Of a DNA stretch of 64,000 nt, positions 2,098-23,924 are shown one piece after another. Source of the stretch: Neoarius graeffei (taxonomy: Eukaryota; Chordata; Actinopteri; Siluriformes; Ariidae); contig NC_083587.1 of the NCBI RefSeq assembly GCF_027579695.1, forward strand, positions 62,293,238-62,357,237, read 5' to 3'. Numbering within the stretch: position 1 is the stretch's first letter; each line of letters begins with the position of its first letter. The notes beneath the pieces are model-generated. The model was given only the letters and a program-made list of their open reading frames with translations. It did no database searches and was not told the origin of the DNA. A program made the translations under genes and the position numbers.

Positions 2098-3188
2098 GGG
2101 GCGGCACGGTGATGTAGTGGTTATCACTGTTGCCTCACAGCAAGAAGGTCCTGGGTTCAAGCCCAGTCACTGGCGAGGGCCTTTCTGTGTGGAGTTTGCA
2201 TGTTCTCCCCGTGTCTGTGTGGGTTTCCTCCGGGTGCTCCGGTTTCCCCCACAGTCCAAAGACATGCAGGTTAGGCTAATTGGTGGCTCTAAATTGACCG
2301 TAGGTGTGAATGTGAGTGTGAATGGTTGTTTGTCTCTATGGTGGGGTTTACATTAGACCATATCAGCGGATCATCAGATTAACGTTTTTAAAATGATTAG
2401 TGTGCACACAGCAACGCCAATACATGATTTGCGTGCACACAGCAACACCAATACATGGATACGCTTGGCTCCGCAGGCATCCTGCGCTCCAAATCACTCC
2501 GCCCTGAACAGCGAGTGCCCTCTGGAGGGTGCGCACTCCGGCCCTGCGCAGCTCACAGAGCGCGCGAGTGGAGTGCACGAGCAGTGATTTGGGACTGAGC
2601 CGCTGTGTGTGTGATCTCAGTGCATGTCGGGCATGCGCGTCACTTACCACTTGCAAGTGGAAGGATGGCAAGCCTAAAGACAATCATAACTACATAATGG
2701 GCAGTATTTGCATCAGTATTTGCAGTATTTTCATACTTTTATACTCTTTAATGAAAGGTGATACAAGGCGGAAGTCTGCGCCGTTTTTCAGCAGTCGCAT
2801 CACATGACCAACGCCAGCGAATCAGGAAGGTGGATGTCACAGTGACGTTGTCCAATGACGACGCCAGCTAGAACTCAGCACAGCGTATCCGCGTATTCTC
2901 AATGTTTACACAGCACCGGACCAGACACGATCTGGATTGAATACGTGGACCCTGACGGATTCCCGTTTCCCGGCGTTTCCAGGCGTTTTAATGTAAACGG
3001 ACAGTGCATCCGCGAAGAAAACGAGACAGATACGGTCTAATGTAAACTTGGCCTATGTGTCAGCCCTGTGATGACCTGGCGACTTGTCCAGTGTGTATCC
3101 CGCCTCTCACCCATAGTCAGCTGGGATAGGCTCCAGCTTGCATGCGACCCTGTAGAACAGGATAAGCGGCTACAGATAATGGATGGAT
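2098..3188 (+). mobile_element. tRNA-headed SINE (family A), split by a MITE
   Basis: Head has A-box-like TAGTGGTTATCAC and B-box-like GGTTCAAGCCC, followed by the body shared by all family A copies and a tail ending ATAATGGATGGAT. An 11-bp target-site duplication GAATTGAATGG is seen at 2087-2097 and 3189-3199. The SINE is interrupted at 2340-3053 by another element, so the two halves are 2098-2339 and 3054-3188. Confidence 0.9.
2340..3053. mobile_element. MITE inserted in SINE, 3-bp TAT duplication
   Basis: 714 bp with ~20-bp terminal inverted repeats sharing GTTTACATTAGACC, flanked by TAT on both sides (2337-2339, 3054-3056); the SINE consensus has a single TAT there. No coding potential recognised. 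A 3-bp duplication suggests PIF/Harbinger-like mobilisation, which is inference. Confidence 0.8.
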
Positions 3189-3414
3189 GAATTGAATGGA
3201 ATTTTATTTTAATCTTGTTTGGAACTTGGTTCCAACACTATCCTCTACTTTGGACTCTACAATGAACAGAACCCCAATCCAACCAGAGACCCGGGCTACA
3301 TCATCATGTCCCCTTATCTAATTTTTTAGAAGTGATTATAAAACATACTTTCACTGTACATTAAAATCATGATTTTCTTTGCCTTGTTTCTTGAACAAGC
3401 TGCAGGTTCTTGTC

Positions 3415-3541
3415 CATCCATCCATCCATCCATTATCTGTAACTGCTTATCTTGTGCAGGGTAGCGGGCAAGCTGACTATGGGCGCAAGGCGGGGTACAC
3501 CCTGGACAAGTCGCCAGGTCATCGCTGGGCTGACACATAGA
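3415..3541 (-). mobile_element. SINE family A, 3' half
   Basis: Antisense copy of the SINE body and (GGAT)n tail only; the tRNA-like head is missing, as expected of a 5'-truncated retroposed copy. Confidence 0.85.
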
Positions 3542-3542
3542 T

Positions 3543-4086
3543 AGCTTTCTTTCATCTCAGAAATATTGCTAAGATAAGAAATTTAATGCCATTACATGAT
3601 GCAGAAAAACTAGTTCATGCTTTCGTTACCTCCATGTTGGATTATTGTAATGTCTTACTGTCTGGATGTTCCAATAATTGCATAAACAAGCTCCAGTTAG
3701 TTCAAAATGCAGCAGCAAGAGTCCTTACTAGAACTAGAAAATATGACCACATCACCCCTGTCTTATCCACACTGCATTGGCTCCCAATTAAATTTCGTAT
3801 TGATTATAAAATACTACTATTCACCTTCAAAGCACTGAATGGTCTCGTACCACAGTACCTGAGCAAACTTCTGGTCCTTTATGACCCACCACACCTACTT
3901 AGATCAAAAGATGCAGGCTATCTGCTGGTACCTTGTATAGTGAAGGCTACATCAGGGGGCAGAGCCTTTTCTTACAAAGCCCCACAGTTATGGAACAGCC
4001 TTCCAAGTAATGTTCGGGAATCAGACACAGTCTCAGCATTTAAGTCTTGGCTAAAAACGTATCTGTTTAGTCAAGCCTTTCCTTAA
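3543..4086 (+). pseudogene. L2/CR1-like LINE reverse transcriptase C-terminus
   Basis: An open frame of about 180 residues matches the thumb and C-terminal region typical of fish L2-type LINE reverse transcriptases: HAFVTSMLDYCNVLLSG, LQLVQNAAARVL, HWLPIKFRIDYKILL, then SGGRAFSYKAPQLWNSLP and a KTYLFSQAF end. The RT catalytic block is absent, so it is a 5'-truncated insertion. The reading frame has stayed open, which suggests it is fairly young. It starts straight after a SINE fragment. Confidence 0.85.
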
Positions 4087-15255: not shown

Positions 15256-15784
15256 ACTGCAGTGAACAGTTTTCCAACAGCCTCTACTTCTATAGCTAAC
15301 CATTGTATTCAAATAGCATACATTTTTTTATATTATTTAAGCAAAAATGGTTAAGCTGGGGCGGCACGGTGGTGTAGTGGTTAGCACTGTCACCTCACAG
15401 CAAGAAGGTCCGGGTTCGAGCCCCGTGGCTGGCGAGGGCCTTTCTGTGCGGAGTTTGCATGTTCTCCCCGTGTCCGCGTGGGTTTCCTCCGGGTGCTCCG
15501 GTTTCCCCCACAGTCCAAAGACATGCAGGTTAGGTTAACTGGTGACTCTAAATTGAGCGTAGGTGTAAATGTGAGTGTGAATGGTTGTCTGTGTCTATGT
15601 GTCAGCCCTGTGATGACCTGGCGACTTGTCCAGGGTGTACCCCGCCTTTCGCCCGTAGTCAGTTGGGATAGGCTCCAGCTTGCCTGCGACCCTGTGGAAC
15701 AGGATAAAGCTGTTAGAGATAATGAGATGAATGAGATGGTTAAGCTATAGAAGTAGAGGGCGTTGAAAAACTGTTGATTGCAGT
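15256..15784. mobile_element. Foldback element hosting a SINE
   Basis: Outer arms are inverted copies of each other: ACTGCAGTGAACAGTTTT...CTCTACTTCTATAGCT on the left, and its complement ending TTGCAGT at 15784 on the right. A SINE sits between them. It is small, non-coding and of unknown class. Confidence 0.65.
15358..15735 (+). mobile_element. Full-length SINE family A
   Basis: Complete tRNA-like head with B-box GGTTCGAGCCC, body and GAGATGA tail. Perfect target duplication ATGGTTAAGCT at 15347-15357 and 15736-15746. Confidence 0.95.

Positions 15785-16103: not shown

Positions 16104-16135
<32 letters not shown>
16104..16135. repeat. (GT)n microsatellite
   Basis: About 16 GT units, followed by a GGTCATTAGAAGGTTT block that reappears upstream of the c1galt1 coding start at 23524. 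Confidence 0.95.
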
Positions 16136-16137
<2 letters not shown>

Positions 16138-16664
16138 TCATTAGAAGGTTTAGACTTTGTCCTTTGAAGGTTATATTTCGTCTTTAGATCGTTATGCTTT
16201 GCCTTTGCGAGATACCATTTTTTTCTCTTTAAAATGTCATGTTTACTTTTGTCTCATCACTCAGATCTTTACACTTGCCCATTTTTCCTGCTTCCAACAC
16301 ATCAACTTCAAGAACTGACTGTTCTCTTGCTGCCGAATATATTCCACCACTTGCCAGGTGTCACTGTAATGAGATAGTGTTATTCACTTCACCTGTTAGT
16401 GGTTTTAATTTTATGGCTGATCAGTGTGTGATGTATGTATGTGTATAAGATATGTATGTGTACACACACACACACACACACATATATGGGTCCATCTCAG
16501 AAACTGGTCTCTCATTTGGAACATTATGGTCACAGAATAAATTTTCTAATTTTGCTATTTTTTTTTGCATTTACCTAACACTCAATGTTTCTTTTGTCAT
16601 GTTTAATAAGAATAAAGATAGCATCTTGCTTTATCTGGCCTCCACTGTGGAAAAGTTTTTTGAT

Positions 16665-17030
16665 CTCATCTCATCTCATTATCTCTAGCCGCTTTATCCT
16701 TCTACAAGCTGGAGCCTATCCCAGCTGACTACAGGCAAAAGGCGGGGTACACCCTGGACAATTCGCCAGGTCATCACAGGGCTGACACATAGACACAGAC
16801 AACCATTCACACTCACATTCACACCTACGCTCAATTTAGAGTCACCAGTTAACCTAACCTGCATGTCTTTGGACTGTGGGGGAAACCGGAGCACCCGGAG
16901 GAAACCCACGCGGACACGGGGAGAACATGCAAACTCCACACAGAAAGGCCCTCGCCGGCTACGGGGCTCGAACCCGGACCTTCTTGCTGTGAGGCGACAG
17001 CGCTAACCACTACACCACCGTGCCGCCCCC
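16665..17030 (-). mobile_element. SINE family A
   Basis: Antisense copy with target duplication AAGTTTTTTGAT at 16653-16664 and 17031-17042. A short internal deletion lies near the tail (the CAGGGTCGCAGG segment is missing). Confidence 0.95.
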
Positions 17031-17569
17031 AAGTTTTTTGATTACGATTCAAATGCTTTTGTAAAATTGATTTACATATAAAATAGCTACATCATGAAGA
17101 ATTAAAGCCCCTCCTTCACAGATGAGTGAAAATATTGAATAAATGTCCTCTTTTTGATTGCTTGGGTTAAAAATGCCAAGTTATGATGACTGAATTGATT
17201 ATTCACTTAAATATGAATAATATGATACATTTTGGGTATTTGATATGGCGAAATAGGACAATAGGACACAATGGAAAAATCAAGAACATACTGGAAAGAT
17301 GAGAATAACAGCGTGGATAAAAGAACAGCGACTGTACCGGCTGAAGGTCGCGCGGTTCTCTGCTACAGCGTGCGAGCAACGGGACGTCACTACCACACCG
17401 GATGGAGCATGAGGTGGGGGCGGGGCAAAATGACTGGTTGTAGAGTCTACCAAAAGTTCGATCTAAATTGACCATGGTTGCAAAATATTGGCCAAAAATA
17501 CGCAAACACTACGAAATATGAAAGTAAGATGAAAAAGAAACATTCTATTGCCTTATACTGGGTAATTCT

Positions 17570-17762
17570 GTGCCAAATCACCAGAAGGCGCCCAACTTAC
17601 CATCTCAGATTTGCTTTATAATTTTTTATTTTGATGCCCTTGTAACTAATAATTACTGTGCAAAATTTTAGGCCAATATCTCCACTAGTTTTGGAGATAG
17701 TAAGCCTTCAAAAAGGGGGCGTGGCCCCATATTTAGCATAAAAACAAGTGTTACAATCAAAT
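17570..17762 (+). repeat. Left long inverted repeat of transposon
   Basis: Starts GTGCCAAATCACCAGA and ends ACAAGTGTTACAATCAAA. It pairs in inverted orientation with 21652-21851; shared blocks include GCAAAATTTTAGGCCAATAT and TAGCATAAAAACAAGTG. Confidence 0.9.
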
Positions 17763-18002
17763 ATATATACCAAATACGAAGTTGGCATTGTGAAGAAAAC
17801 GATTTTATTCATCTTGAATATAGAAGGTTTTATGACATGCGAAAATGCCATTCACAAGGTTACATCACATGCTACATCATTATTAATTCAAATTCTCTTG
17901 ACTATACATATATGTTGTATATTTGTAAATATGATAAATGATTTACAAATCTCACAAAAGTCAATTACACAAATTTAATTCTATTTAGTAGACTTAGCAT
18001 GT

Positions 18003-19110
18003 CTATTTGAAGCGTTTGAATAACTGGTCAATTTCTTTCACCACGCCAGACGGAACTACATATTGTCTACCAGTTGATGTGATTGGTGCATCTATGATCT
18101 TTATGATGTGTATCAGTGGAACCCAACAGATATCTTTTCTTCTGGGCCAACTGTAAGACTTTGCAGGACCATGAGGGTGCATAAATTGTACTTGCACATC
18201 CTGTTCCTCCTCCGATATTGCACAGATATTACCAATCCACCATTGCTGGTCATACAAACATGCAACATATTTTCCTGGGATCATGTCTGACAGGGTGTAA
18301 CCTTCTTTCACAGCATCATCTCCAACCTGGGGATGAGTGCCACTCATGTCCACAATGAAGCTTGGTCCACCAGACACTCTGCTGATCTGCAACTCGCTCT
18401 CTGAGATAGGAACAAATGAGTGGTTGTCCCTTGCTTGTTACTTCCCCCTTTTCAATCCAAATGAAATGGATGTTTTTTATGGTTTTTTTCTGCCCACACA
18501 CAGAGATCTCGTGGTGTCAGTATGTGTTGTGAAGTAACTGCCTGTAAGCTGGCTCAAGCTGCAGAATGCTTCATGGTGCCACCTATCCCGTCACAAGGTG
18601 ATTTTCCATGGGAAGTAGCAAAAAAGTGCCATTCAGCTGTCATACCAAAGTCTTCCTGGTGATGCAAAAGACTTGTACAGTTTTTGTGGTTTTTGTACTG
18701 GGCAGCTGATCCATCACTAAACTATATAAGTTTTGAAATTTGGGGACTGAGTTGTTGAATGTATGGAATCACTGCTTTTAAGAATGTGTGAACGGCTACA
18801 GTATCATGCTTCAGGCAGTCACTTATGACACATATAGATATGCATGTTGTTTCATATGTCCCATCTTCTTCATGTAAACAGCAAATGGATGAAGGGTGCA
18901 CTGGCTGTTGTCCCAGTGGTACCCCTGCGCTGCATCCTGTACCAAAAAAGAGTAGTTCTCAGCAAAATCCAAAAGTACTATACAGTCATCAATTGCCAGG
19001 TTTTGCTTCATGTCTCTCAAATATTTGCACATCTCAACATGCGATGACAGGCGGCACGGTGGTGTAGTGGTTAGCGCTTTCGCCTCACAGCAAGAAGGTC
19101 CGGGTTCGAG
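18003..19110 (-). pseudogene. Broken DDE-like transposase with C-terminal Tudor-like domain
   Basis: Reading leftward from about 19110: DDCIVLLDFAENYSFLVQD and GYHWDNSQCTLHPF (candidate first acidic residue), after a frame shift SDCLKHDTVAVHTF, then FSDGSAAQYKNHKN (candidate second Asp), EWHFFATSHGKSPCDGIGG (candidate third site), and the last open 130 codons (18392-18003) with VACLYDQQWWIGNI and VQFMHPHGPAKSYSWP then CWVP, like a small beta-barrel reader domain. At least one frameshift and three stops break it. Similar uncharacterised proteins occur in fish and cnidarians by my recollection; assignment to a named superfamily is not possible here. It lies between the long inverted repeats. 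Confidence 0.6.
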
Positions 19111-19412
19111 CCCCGTGGCCAGCGAGGGCCTTTCTGTGCGGAGTTTGCATGTTCTCCCCATGTCCTCGTGGGTTTCCTCCGGGTGCTCCGGTTTCCCCCA
19201 CAGACCAAAGACATGCAGGTTAGGTTAACTGGTGACTCTAAATGGACCGTAGGTGTGAATGGTTGTCTGTGTCTATGTGTCAGCCCTGTGATGACCTGGC
19301 GACTTGTCCAGGGTGTACCCTGCCTTTCGCCCGTAGTCAGCTGGGATAGGCTCCAGCTTGCCTGCGACCCTGTAGAACAGGATAAAGTGGCTAGAGATAA
19401 TGAGATGAGATG
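19051..19412 (+). mobile_element. SINE family A in transposase relic
   Basis: Target duplication AACATGCGATGACAG, 15 bp and perfect, at 19036-19050 and 19413-19427. It interrupts the transposase-like frame, so it is younger. Confidence 0.97.
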
Positions 19413-20479
19413 AACATGCGATGACAGAGTATAATCTTTTCTTTAACTTACCATAACTAGGTTTTATGCTATGTTTTAATCATTCAATTACAGATCTATT
19501 TTTGATAAACATGCAATTAATTTAACATATTTAGAATCTATAAAAAATATGTTTAATTTTGATATATAAATGTATGCATACTGATTAAGTTAAACATTCA
19601 GTTTAAGCAAGTTGTTACTCTGGTACATTAAGTGTCAACCCTCCATTCCAAAAGAATTTTTTCTAAAATTTTTGTTTAGAATTTTTGTTAATAAATTAAT
19701 TTTTAAATTTAAACATGTCACTTTATTAGGGAGCTTCAAATGAGGTCAATGCTGATCAGTCAAAAACCACGAACATACAGTTATACCACTATATAAATGA
19801 TGAATATGCTAACTCCATGTGACCTGTCTATCTTCAAGACAAAAATTTGCCTATTAATATTTATCTGAGTAATTAGTACATTAGGCTTTTCTCATTCCCC
19901 GGCCTGAGCTACCCTATCATATGGTTAGTGAAAGTGTACACTGAACTTTATCACTCAAAGTAAAACTAGGTCACGCAAAGTGATTTTATGTCATCGTGTC
20001 CTTGACCTCATTAATATTGACCTAATTAAAGTCAGCTGCACATCCTTGACCTCTCCCCAACAGAAATCTATGATGGGTCATTAAATAGGATTAAAATCCT
20101 AGCAGGAGTTTTATGCCAAAGGAAAGAGCAGAAGAACAAAAAGAATAATAAGGAACCGTGCAATTACAATGTATTTTGCCTTTTAGAAGGCAAAATACAA
20201 TGATGTAGCATGTGATGTAACTTTGTGAATTGCATTTTCTCATGTCTTAAAACCTTCTATATTCAACAGCTTGAATGAAATAGTTTTCTTCACAGCACCA
20301 ACTTCATACTTGGTACATATATCAATTAGACATTGCTCTTTTCACTGATCTAATTTGTTTTCTGGTTGACCTTGTCAGATTTTTGCTATAAGCATTCAAA
20401 ATACAGACGCGACAAGCTTTTTTCCATTTTTATGGGCCTATATATGAGACTACTGTTTATTGCATACCTAGACATTGTC

Positions 20480-21333
20480 CTTCAAGAAGTTAACAAATAA
20501 CAGACTGACATATTCCAAACTTTTGGATATGCAGATGACATTTGCCAATGGGAAAGGAGTATAGACGCAATAATGTACGCCTTGGAAAGGCATGTTGATG
20601 AGTTCACAAACGCAGGAATGAAAATGAACAAAGAAAGTGGCAACCAGAAGTCTTGGTCTTTGGTAGAAACCCCCCAAACACTGAAATTACAGTCAACGGA
20701 GACACTATTGGGAGGGTTGAACAGGCCAAGTACCTAGGCTCAGTTGCATCCAAAGAATCAGGTAACAAAGCTGAAATCACAGAAAGAATCAGTAACTTCA
20801 GCAGACAAGCTGCCGCCCTCCAACCAGTGCTCCAAGACAAACTAGTCTCAAACGAAGTAAAGAAGACAATTTTTAACACCATTTTAAAACCAGGCCTTCT
20901 ATACGGCTGTGAATCCTGAGTGTTAGCCAAGAAAGACATCAGTAGACTACAAGCTGCGGAAATGAAAGTGGTCCGTACTATGCTAGTGACGACGAGAGTG
21001 GACAGACTGAGAAATACCCACCTAAGAGGAATCCTTGGCATAACATCGATAGAGGAAGACATAGAAAGGGCAGCCCTTAGATGGCTAGGGCATGGCGAAA
21101 GAATGGAAGATGGAAGGATTCCAAAAATAGCATTCAAATACAAACCCAAGGGCAAGCGCCCTCTCGGCAGACCTAGGAAAAGGTGGAAGGACAACATACA
21201 AGAAATATTAACAAAGTACAGACTGGGCAGACTAGACAGACTTGAGGAGGAGGGGGTCTTCCAAGACCGAGAGGAATGGAGAAGGCAATGCTCTCAACTG
21301 ACAGGCCCTAAGGCCTATCTGGGGAAGATGTAA
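20480..21333 (+). pseudogene. LINE reverse-transcriptase 3' fragment
   Basis: Begins at the catalytic block (QTFGYADDICQWE) and runs through KYLGSVASKES, KPGLLYGCES (then a TGA at 20918-20920), GILGITSIEEDIERAALRWLGH and RPLGRPRKRWKDNI to a stop after GKM. One frame break lies near 20650. It is a 5'-truncated retroposed LINE of a different lineage from copies 1 and 2, inserted inside the large transposon. Confidence 0.8.
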
Positions 21334-21651
21334 GTAAGATATATGAGACAAGGATAATTTTTGTCACAGATTTAACATGTTTTCCTGATAGTACAATAAC
21401 ATGTCTCATATATTAAAAAGAATCAGACATCTGGTGTCATTAAATCTGGAGATATAGAGAGCCAAAAGTGCTACCATGGACAAATGTGCATTCCAGGAAG
21501 CCATATTTGGTACACCATAAATCTGCAAATATGTCACATGCAAAGCTCTCCTTCTGTATACAGAGCTTTATTATATCACAGAATCATGTGTGTAAATTTG
21601 AACCATTTAGTGTGAACAGATCAAAAGTTATTAGCCATCAAACTATGGATG

Positions 21652-21851
21652 TTTGATTGTAACACTTGTTTTTATGCTAAAAAACAAAAAAAAGCCTTTT
21701 TGAAGGCTTAATATCTCAGAAACTAGTGGAAATATTGGCCTAAAATTTTGCACAGCAGTTATTAGTAACAAGGACATTAAAATAAAAAAAATATGAACAA
21801 AATCTGAGATGGTCAGTCGGGAACTTTCTCTAAAATCTGGTGATTTGGCAC
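21652..21851 (-). repeat. Right long inverted repeat of transposon
   Basis: Inverted partner of 17570-17762; ends CTGGTGATTTGGCAC at 21851. Confidence 0.9.
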
Positions 21852-22691
21852 GGACTAAAACAAAATAAAACTGTCAAAACTCACCTTTTCAGTGACAACG
21901 TCCAAGCAGATCACTCGTGTAACAGAAAGGCCGCAAATGGAAGCACGATCAACTTCTAACTGTTGGAGTGGAAAATTCCATTCTACACATGCAAATTGTT
22001 AATGTGTGTCCTTCCCCGTACACAAATAACACGCTACGGTAAAAAACAGACCACAACTCATTTTATAGCTCAGAAATTCATACAAGACCAGCTACCATCG
22101 TAACATATTCTGTAAGAAACATATTCTATACCTAACTTTCAGCTTTCATTTTAAAAAACAAAATCGCAGATTTATAACTAAATGTTTATATGGCATAGTG
22201 ATTTTAAGTGAATACTTTTGGTGAGGTTGTGACCTTGACCCTGAGGCTTTCCGTTTAGATCAAAACACACGATCGTATTGGTTTTGGGTTTGCGGAAAAT
22301 GGAGTTACAACGGTGATCAAATATTTTGCATGATGTTTTATTATGGTTATGATTATTCTGTGAGCGCACCAATCCTTAGGTGTATAAAGTTATAACTTAA
22401 AATACAATTAGTGATAACCGTAGACTTTTCAGTGGACTACAACCTTTTTATAGGAATATGATGTAGTCAACCATTTATCATGTCCCAGATCAAGCTGCCA
22501 TTTTTCCACAAATTTGCAGAATTTTTGCCAAATTCTGAATATTCACATCAAAGATTTAGTTTTATCTGTATTATTTCTTTCATCATTTTATTTCAAATTA
22601 AAACCAACATCACCAATCAAAACTGTATAGTTTATTGACTTTGAGTATATTTAGTGGGGGACCCCCACAGTACCCAGTTTCTGAGACAGAC

Positions 22692-22692
<1 letters not shown>

Positions 22693-22765
<73 letters not shown>
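22693..22765. repeat. (TA)n microsatellite
   Basis: Long uninterrupted AT dinucleotide run next to the transposon end. Confidence 0.95.
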
Positions 22766-23523: not shown

Positions 23524-23924
23524 TGGTCATTAGAAGGTTTAGATTCTGTCCTATGAAGGTTATATTTTGTTTTTAAGTCATTAAATTTTTGTCTTTAGAA
23601 GGTTATCTTTTGCCTTTACAATGCTATTTCATCTTTTGCAGGTTTAAGTTTAGTCTTTTAAAGGTTACGTTTTGTGTTCAGAGGGTTATGTTTTGCCTTT
23701 CTGAGATTACAGTTTTCTCTTTAGAATGCTACATTTTCGTCTTCACAAGGTTGCATTTCATCACGAGGTTATGTTTTGTCTTTAAAAGTTTGTCTCGTCT
23801 TCAGAACATTTAAATTTTTAAATCTTTCATCATTCTTTTATGAAAGTTTAATTTTTAGAAAGTTTTACTTTGACTTTAGGAACTTGTGTTTCATCTCTAG
23901 AAGGTTGTTATGTTTCATCCTTAG
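23524..23924 (+). repeat. Degenerate ~20-bp minisatellite before c1galt1 start
   Basis: Repeats of an AAGGTTATGTTTTGTCTTTAG-like unit, diverged, run up to the coding exon. Each unit carries a TTTAG that resembles a splice acceptor. A related block lies at about 16136-16265. Confidence 0.7.

Follow-up and report, generated by a model that had tools for sequence, protein, structure and literature searches.

Two nested DNA transposons in the genome of Neoarius graeffei, the inner one very probably derived from a cut-and-paste element with a single DDD transposase

The stretch analyzed here (the window) comprises 64,000 nucleotides of the ariid catfish Neoarius graeffei (NCBI RefSeq assembly GCF_027579695.1, contig NC_083587.1, positions 62,293,238 to 62,357,237 of the forward strand). 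Its segment 16488-22693 very probably consists of two nested transposons of different families, an inner one (family A) inserted in an outer one, with family A deriving from a cut-and-paste element with a single DDD transposase (a transposase with three catalytic Asp residues). The inner element is a degenerate copy from a sizeable and in part young group of cut-and-paste elements, and it leads to abundant, diverse transposases that sequence searches of Pfam, NCBIfam and PDB do not recognize. Such nesting can lead the ends of two transposons to be mistaken for those of one new element, as illustrated here: the initial annotation had assigned both sets of inverted repeats to one autonomous element. 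Genome searches for copies were run on the 2.34-Gb assembly of 38 contigs that contains the window. The two elements and the ends of the inner one are:

16488-22693, no strand assigned: outer element, a non-coding DNA transposon of ~1.5 kb without its inserts, with ends GGGTCYRTCTCAGAAACTGG and AT-rich flanks.
17560-21853, minus strand: inner element (family A), degenerate and derived by deletion from a DDD-type transposon, delimited by 33 genome loci and by the empty site in six outer copies; its right end lacks the final ~9 bp.
17560-17764, plus strand: left terminal inverted repeat of the inner element, truncated relative to the ~0.75 kb of fuller copies, for example L012.
21649-21853, minus strand: outer part of the right terminal inverted repeat, which runs inward to 21339 and then, past an insert resembling a long interspersed element (LINE), through 20450-20199.

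The outer ends (16488-16507 and 22674-22693) match as inverted repeats at 18 out of 20 bases, compared with a maximum of 16 matches in 60 mononucleotide shuffles of the two flanks, so that the ~20-bp inverted ends first reported are indeed present. A search with the first 168 bp from 16488 gave 1233 first-look candidates in the genome; the 40 that were scored, window included, showed 95-100% identity and all begin at query base 1-4. Seven further copies (L044-L050) were read, and the five with both ends in the fetched stretch are 1,439-1,535 bp long and carry the same inverted ends. Because the flanks are AT-rich and frequently TA repeats, the length of the target duplication of the outer element cannot be told. 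In six of the seven copies, an empty site (TTATACTGCAAGACTAAAAC, with small variants) runs uninterrupted across the position of the inner element, and the latter is therefore an insertion there; the match of the seventh copy (L044) ends before this site and is uninformative. In the window, TTATACT joins GGGTAATTC at the left junction and GGCACGG joins ACTAAAAC at the right one. By comparison with the other copies, the right junction appears to have lost the last ~9 bp of the inner element, the right copy of the duplication and ~5 target bases, which is why no target duplication is readable in the window.

The inner inverted repeats (17567-17764 and 21649-21854) are 79% identical over 208 columns (E 1.4e-46), in line with the ~200-bp repeats noted initially. 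The window copy has a shortened left arm, and the LINE-like insert interrupts its right arm; in copies L012, L014 and L027, the segments 21854-21339 and 20450-20199, or most of them, are present at both ends. When the left 193 bp of the inner element were searched against the genome, 695 candidates were found, and the 40 that were scored, window included, showed 92-100% identity. Stretches were fetched around 33 of the other 39 scored copies (only ~2.5 kb each for the last 13), and in these 33 loci the alignments mostly break off at most a few bases away from the same pair of boundaries. The repeat is thus multi-copy rather than found only here, and the boundaries rebuilt from the copies place the coding element at 17560-21853, not at 16488-22693. 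In favor of a single element, the outer ends form an inverted pair that flanks the coding part. However, the sequences between the outer ends and the inner element (16488-16655, 17036-17558 or 21860-22693) are matched by none of the 33 inner-copy loci (E <= 1e-3). Together with the six outer copies that lack the inner part, this refutes one autonomous element spanning 16488-22693, a view we regard as almost certainly wrong.

The family A copies further define the termini and the target duplication. A G stands three bases outside TAATTC in 49 out of 50 ends, although this base was not part of the pattern used to find them, and the ends are therefore GRGTAATTC...GAATTACYC. Fourteen copies could be paired at both ends, which lie 291 to 4,024 bp apart. 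Exact 4-bp flanking duplications are present in seven of them (AAAA, TTTG, ATAA, ATCA, CATT, ACTT and TGAG), and three further copies are identical at three of the four bases. In 20,000 reshuffled pairings, the mean number of exact matches was 0.49 and the maximum was four. A 6-bp duplication fits 3 of the 14 paired copies.

Between the inner repeats lies a relic, at 19041-18006 on the minus strand and in three frames, of what is by its sequence a decayed transposase:

18850-19041, minus strand: segment bearing the first of the proposed catalytic Asp residues (LLDFAENY), an Asp invariant in four families.
18455-18886, minus strand: segment bearing the second and third of these proposed residues (FSDGSAAQYKN and SHGKSPCDGIGG), frameshifted relative to the first piece and with two in-frame stops.
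18006-18371, minus strand: barrel-like C-terminal domain (YDQQWWIG ... SWP ... CWVP), an open frame.

The minus-strand protein relic described earlier is thus confirmed, with its three acidic motifs and the C-terminal stretch YDQQWWIG / MHPHGPAKSYSWP. D7, D90 and D131 are invariant in families A-D (one sequence each), among many other invariant residues, in the motifs LLDFAENY, YFSDG and PCDGIGG, and they are spaced by 83-87 and 37-40 residues in families A and B. Of the earlier proposal of an autonomous cut-and-paste element, the cut-and-paste lineage stands, with its conserved acidic triad; autonomy does not: as it now stands, the window copy carries no N-terminal transposase half and could not move autonomously. 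Among the 33 loci, some being only partly retrieved, sequence for the N-terminal part was detected in a single one (L015). At another locus (L037), the core is joined to the same upstream stretch as in the window, with small differences, suggesting that the window copy was probably non-autonomous by the time it moved.

Relatives of this transposase are numerous in the genome. With the protein of family B as query, 1219 candidates were found, of which 103 were scored at 46-100% identity; 12 of the 103 lie in stop-free frames of at least 700 codons, the longest reaching 853 codons. Eight full-length family B matches, the query's own place included, are 99-100% identical, one of them with a stop. 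With intact copies, the role of the possible chromatin-reading domain and the DDD mechanism proposed here, with its 4-bp stagger, could be tested directly. Families B (L042/L022), C (L054) and D (L053) were examined in detail. Family B has GGG...CCC ends, inverted repeats of 537 and 382 alignment columns, and CTTT on both sides as judged by eye. The family D copy, with both ends, spans 4,664 bp, has 844-bp inverted repeats at 95% identity and CCAT on both sides, and contains a single open frame of 842 residues counted from a TTG codon. By eye, this protein shows Cys/His clusters and a helix-turn-helix-like stretch; a Pfam search gave two insignificant matches, SDA1_dom (E 0.084) and HTH_23 (residues 232-265, E 0.12). 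Protein scans of viral contigs and genome contigs confirmed no relatives outside this genome, although distant ones may be missed because the scans need short exact peptide patterns. Two viral contigs matching the DNA pattern for the third-Asp motif were chance matches (tblastn E 0.055 or worse).

Several further observations concern these relatives. The family B copy L042 sits inside the right end of a Tc1-like element, whose inverted arms lie at 2120-2329 and 3519-3669, the latter continuing beyond family B; a 340-residue open frame at 2488-3510 of the same locus presumably resembles Tc1-type transposases. Another relative (G000 C20:62403123-62404229), ~46 kb beyond the window, is 50% identical to the family B protein and has a stop-free frame of 552 codons. 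The word CRTCTCAGA occurs ~41-54 bp from the ends in most of the checked ends of families A and B; it is absent from the left end of L012, lies at one internal position each in L012 and L015, and is also found at bases 6-14 of the left end of the outer element. This recurrence could be due to chance or to a shared binding word and is suggestive only.

The predicted folds were used to assess the core and the C-terminal domain. The core piece of the window, which lacks the first strand, was predicted as strand-helix-strand (bearing the second Asp)-helices-strand-...-helix. This order is compatible with a putative RNase H core, the fold that the initial annotation proposed to test for, but the model is weak, with a predicted local distance difference test (pLDDT) score of about 46; the RNase H chain found by Foldseek at rank 34 (E 0.53) provides no evidence for it. 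The C-terminal piece was predicted with several strands (pLDDT also about 46). A C-terminal profile of the four families aligned with PHF19 Tudor chains (E 0.39-0.68) behind a fucosyltransferase (E 0.15), none of them significant. The Pfam ancillary domain of BRWD/PHIP was matched by two of the four members (best E 0.013, far below the cut-off), and so was the unrelated GH97_C (two of four, best E 0.022). The alignments to PHF19 Tudor and BRWD/PHIP cover the first ~30-40 residues of the C-terminal domain, and the fucosyltransferase and GH97_C score about as well. The domain may be a reader-type barrel, as first proposed, and its Tudor-like character is a lead only, all matches lying below the threshold.

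Some results weigh against derivation from a DDD cut-and-paste transposon. Both folds are of low confidence (pLDDT 45.7 and 46.4), and none of 945 Foldseek matches of the core piece reached E <= 0.001, the best being the unrelated MITD1 (E 0.033). No significant match was found in Pfam, NCBIfam (one protein) or PDB. The HTH_23 match (E 0.12) is accompanied by a chance match of E 0.084. Four of the 14 paired family A copies match at two or fewer of the four duplication bases, and because the duplication of the window copy itself has been deleted, its stagger is taken from other copies. A host gene family resembling a transposase, either as domesticated copies or as a multigene family, would be in keeping with the many open frames. 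However, the copies read at both ends have inverted ends, many of them with direct 4-bp duplications, and the distance between the ends of the paired family A copies varies from 291 to 4,024 bp, which makes a host gene family highly improbable. Derivation of family A from a DDD cut-and-paste transposon remains the preferred explanation.

The placement of this lineage among the known superfamilies was then considered. IS3EU, Kolobok, hAT and Tc1/mariner elements all use RNase H-like transposases, and hAT elements generate 8-bp duplications. GRG ends probably also occur in Sola2; a literature search for Sola2 together with GRG found no paper. A search with motif strings of this transposase type found none, and further searches, covering titles and abstract openings, gave no title pointing to this lineage. 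According to published descriptions, Sola elements have DDD transposases, 4-bp duplications and inverted repeats of 11-1124 bp and are mostly 2-9 kb long (PMC10741241), and the 4-bp duplications of Sola2 families are AT-rich, being AWWT in Dictyostelium families (PMC3627910). Published descriptions also give TTAA 4-bp duplications and purine-purine ends for Kolobok (PMC9587614), TA..TA ends (mostly, for GingerRoot) and usually 6-bp duplications for IS3EU and GingerRoot, and TA duplications in general for Tc1/mariner (PMC10045372).

On these published descriptions, rather than on protein sequence, the anatomy fits the Sola superfamily. The lineage shares with it a proposed DDD transposase, the 4-bp duplications (exact in half of the paired family A copies, with CTTT in family B and CCAT in family D) and sizes within the published ranges, including the 844-bp repeats in the 4,664-bp element of family D and the 537 and 382 columns of family B. 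Compared with the AT-rich duplications of Sola2, those of family A are mixed: AAAA and ATAA are pure A/T, and TTTG, TGAG, CATT, ATCA and ACTT hold G or C. The accessible text on Sola (PMC10741241, PMC3627910) makes no mention of a barrel-like C-terminal part. The varied duplications, which are not confined to A and T (TTTG, CATT, TGAG, CCAT, CTTT), and the lack of significant Pfam, NCBIfam or PDB matches would suit a separate superfamily, marked by GRG...CYC ends, long inverted repeats and the barrel-like domain. Nevertheless, the duplication length, transposase type and repeat length are as described for Sola in PMC10741241, and we consider a separate superfamily rather unlikely. Slightly less likely still is a fuller version of it: a superfamily-level eukaryotic DDD lineage separate from Sola1-3 and characterized by GRG...CYC ends, 4-bp duplications and long inverted repeats, whose transposase would join Cys/His and helix-turn-helix regions to a DDD core and to a Tudor-like domain, the latter possibly directing insertion through the recognition of chromatin, and several of whose families in this genome would be young enough to still move.

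Membership in IS3EU, Kolobok, hAT or Tc1/mariner is very unlikely, since the ends and duplications known for them differ from those found here. Kolobok shares the 4-bp duplications and purine-purine ends, but it duplicates TTAA, whereas the duplications here are varied (AAAA, TTTG, ATAA, ATCA, CATT, ACTT, TGAG, CTTT and CCAT). IS3EU, suspected at first, and GingerRoot have a DDD/E transposase in common with this lineage and were ruled out by their TA..TA ends and 6-bp duplications, as opposed to GRG...CYC ends and poor agreement with a 6-bp reading. The TA duplications of Tc1/mariner do not fit the 4-bp duplications of families A and D.

The following course of events is proposed for the nest and for the possibly Sola-like DDD lineage of its inner element. 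A non-coding DNA transposon of ~1.5 kb very probably inserted into AT-rich DNA, followed by a family A copy at TTATACT/GCAAG within it and later by a short interspersed element (SINE) and a LINE-like fragment in family A. In the transposition of family A, the helix-turn-helix and Cys/His N-terminal parts would bind the long inverted ends, the putative RNase H-like core would cut at GRG...CYC and join the 3' ends to the target with a 4-bp stagger, and gap repair would yield the 4-bp duplication. The C-terminal barrel may have a targeting role via chromatin, and deletion derivatives such as the window copy may be mobilized in trans.

The later insertions in the nest are:

19036-19427, plus strand: SINE (19051-19412) with an exact 15-bp target duplication (19036-19050 and 19413-19427); no SINE stands at this place in L037.
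20440-21349, plus strand: 888-bp insert (20451-21338) with a part resembling a reverse-transcriptase C terminus and an 11-bp duplication, ATATATGAGAC; L012, L014 and L026 are uninterrupted there.
16653-17042, minus strand: second SINE (16665-17030), inside the outer element, with a 12-bp duplication, AAGTTTTTTGAT.

The 15-bp duplication around the first SINE agrees with the initial annotation, and the element is older than this SINE, as concluded there. The 888-bp insert, the second SINE and the missing N-terminal transposase half, by contrast, do not figure in that annotation. The 888-bp insert ends 3' in TAAGTAAG, and its plus-strand product (GRPRKRWKDNI...) is presumably akin to the C-terminal part of a reverse transcriptase of non-LTR (non-long-terminal-repeat) type; a Pfam search of the insert gave no significant domain. 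One SINE is present in three copies within ~4 kb (about 15400-15730, 16665-17030 and 19051-19412). Moreover, a 60-bp direct repeat with 87% identity lies on either side of the outer element (16135-16194 and 23524-23583), and two weaker copies at 23567 and 23629 give it the appearance of a decayed tandem array.

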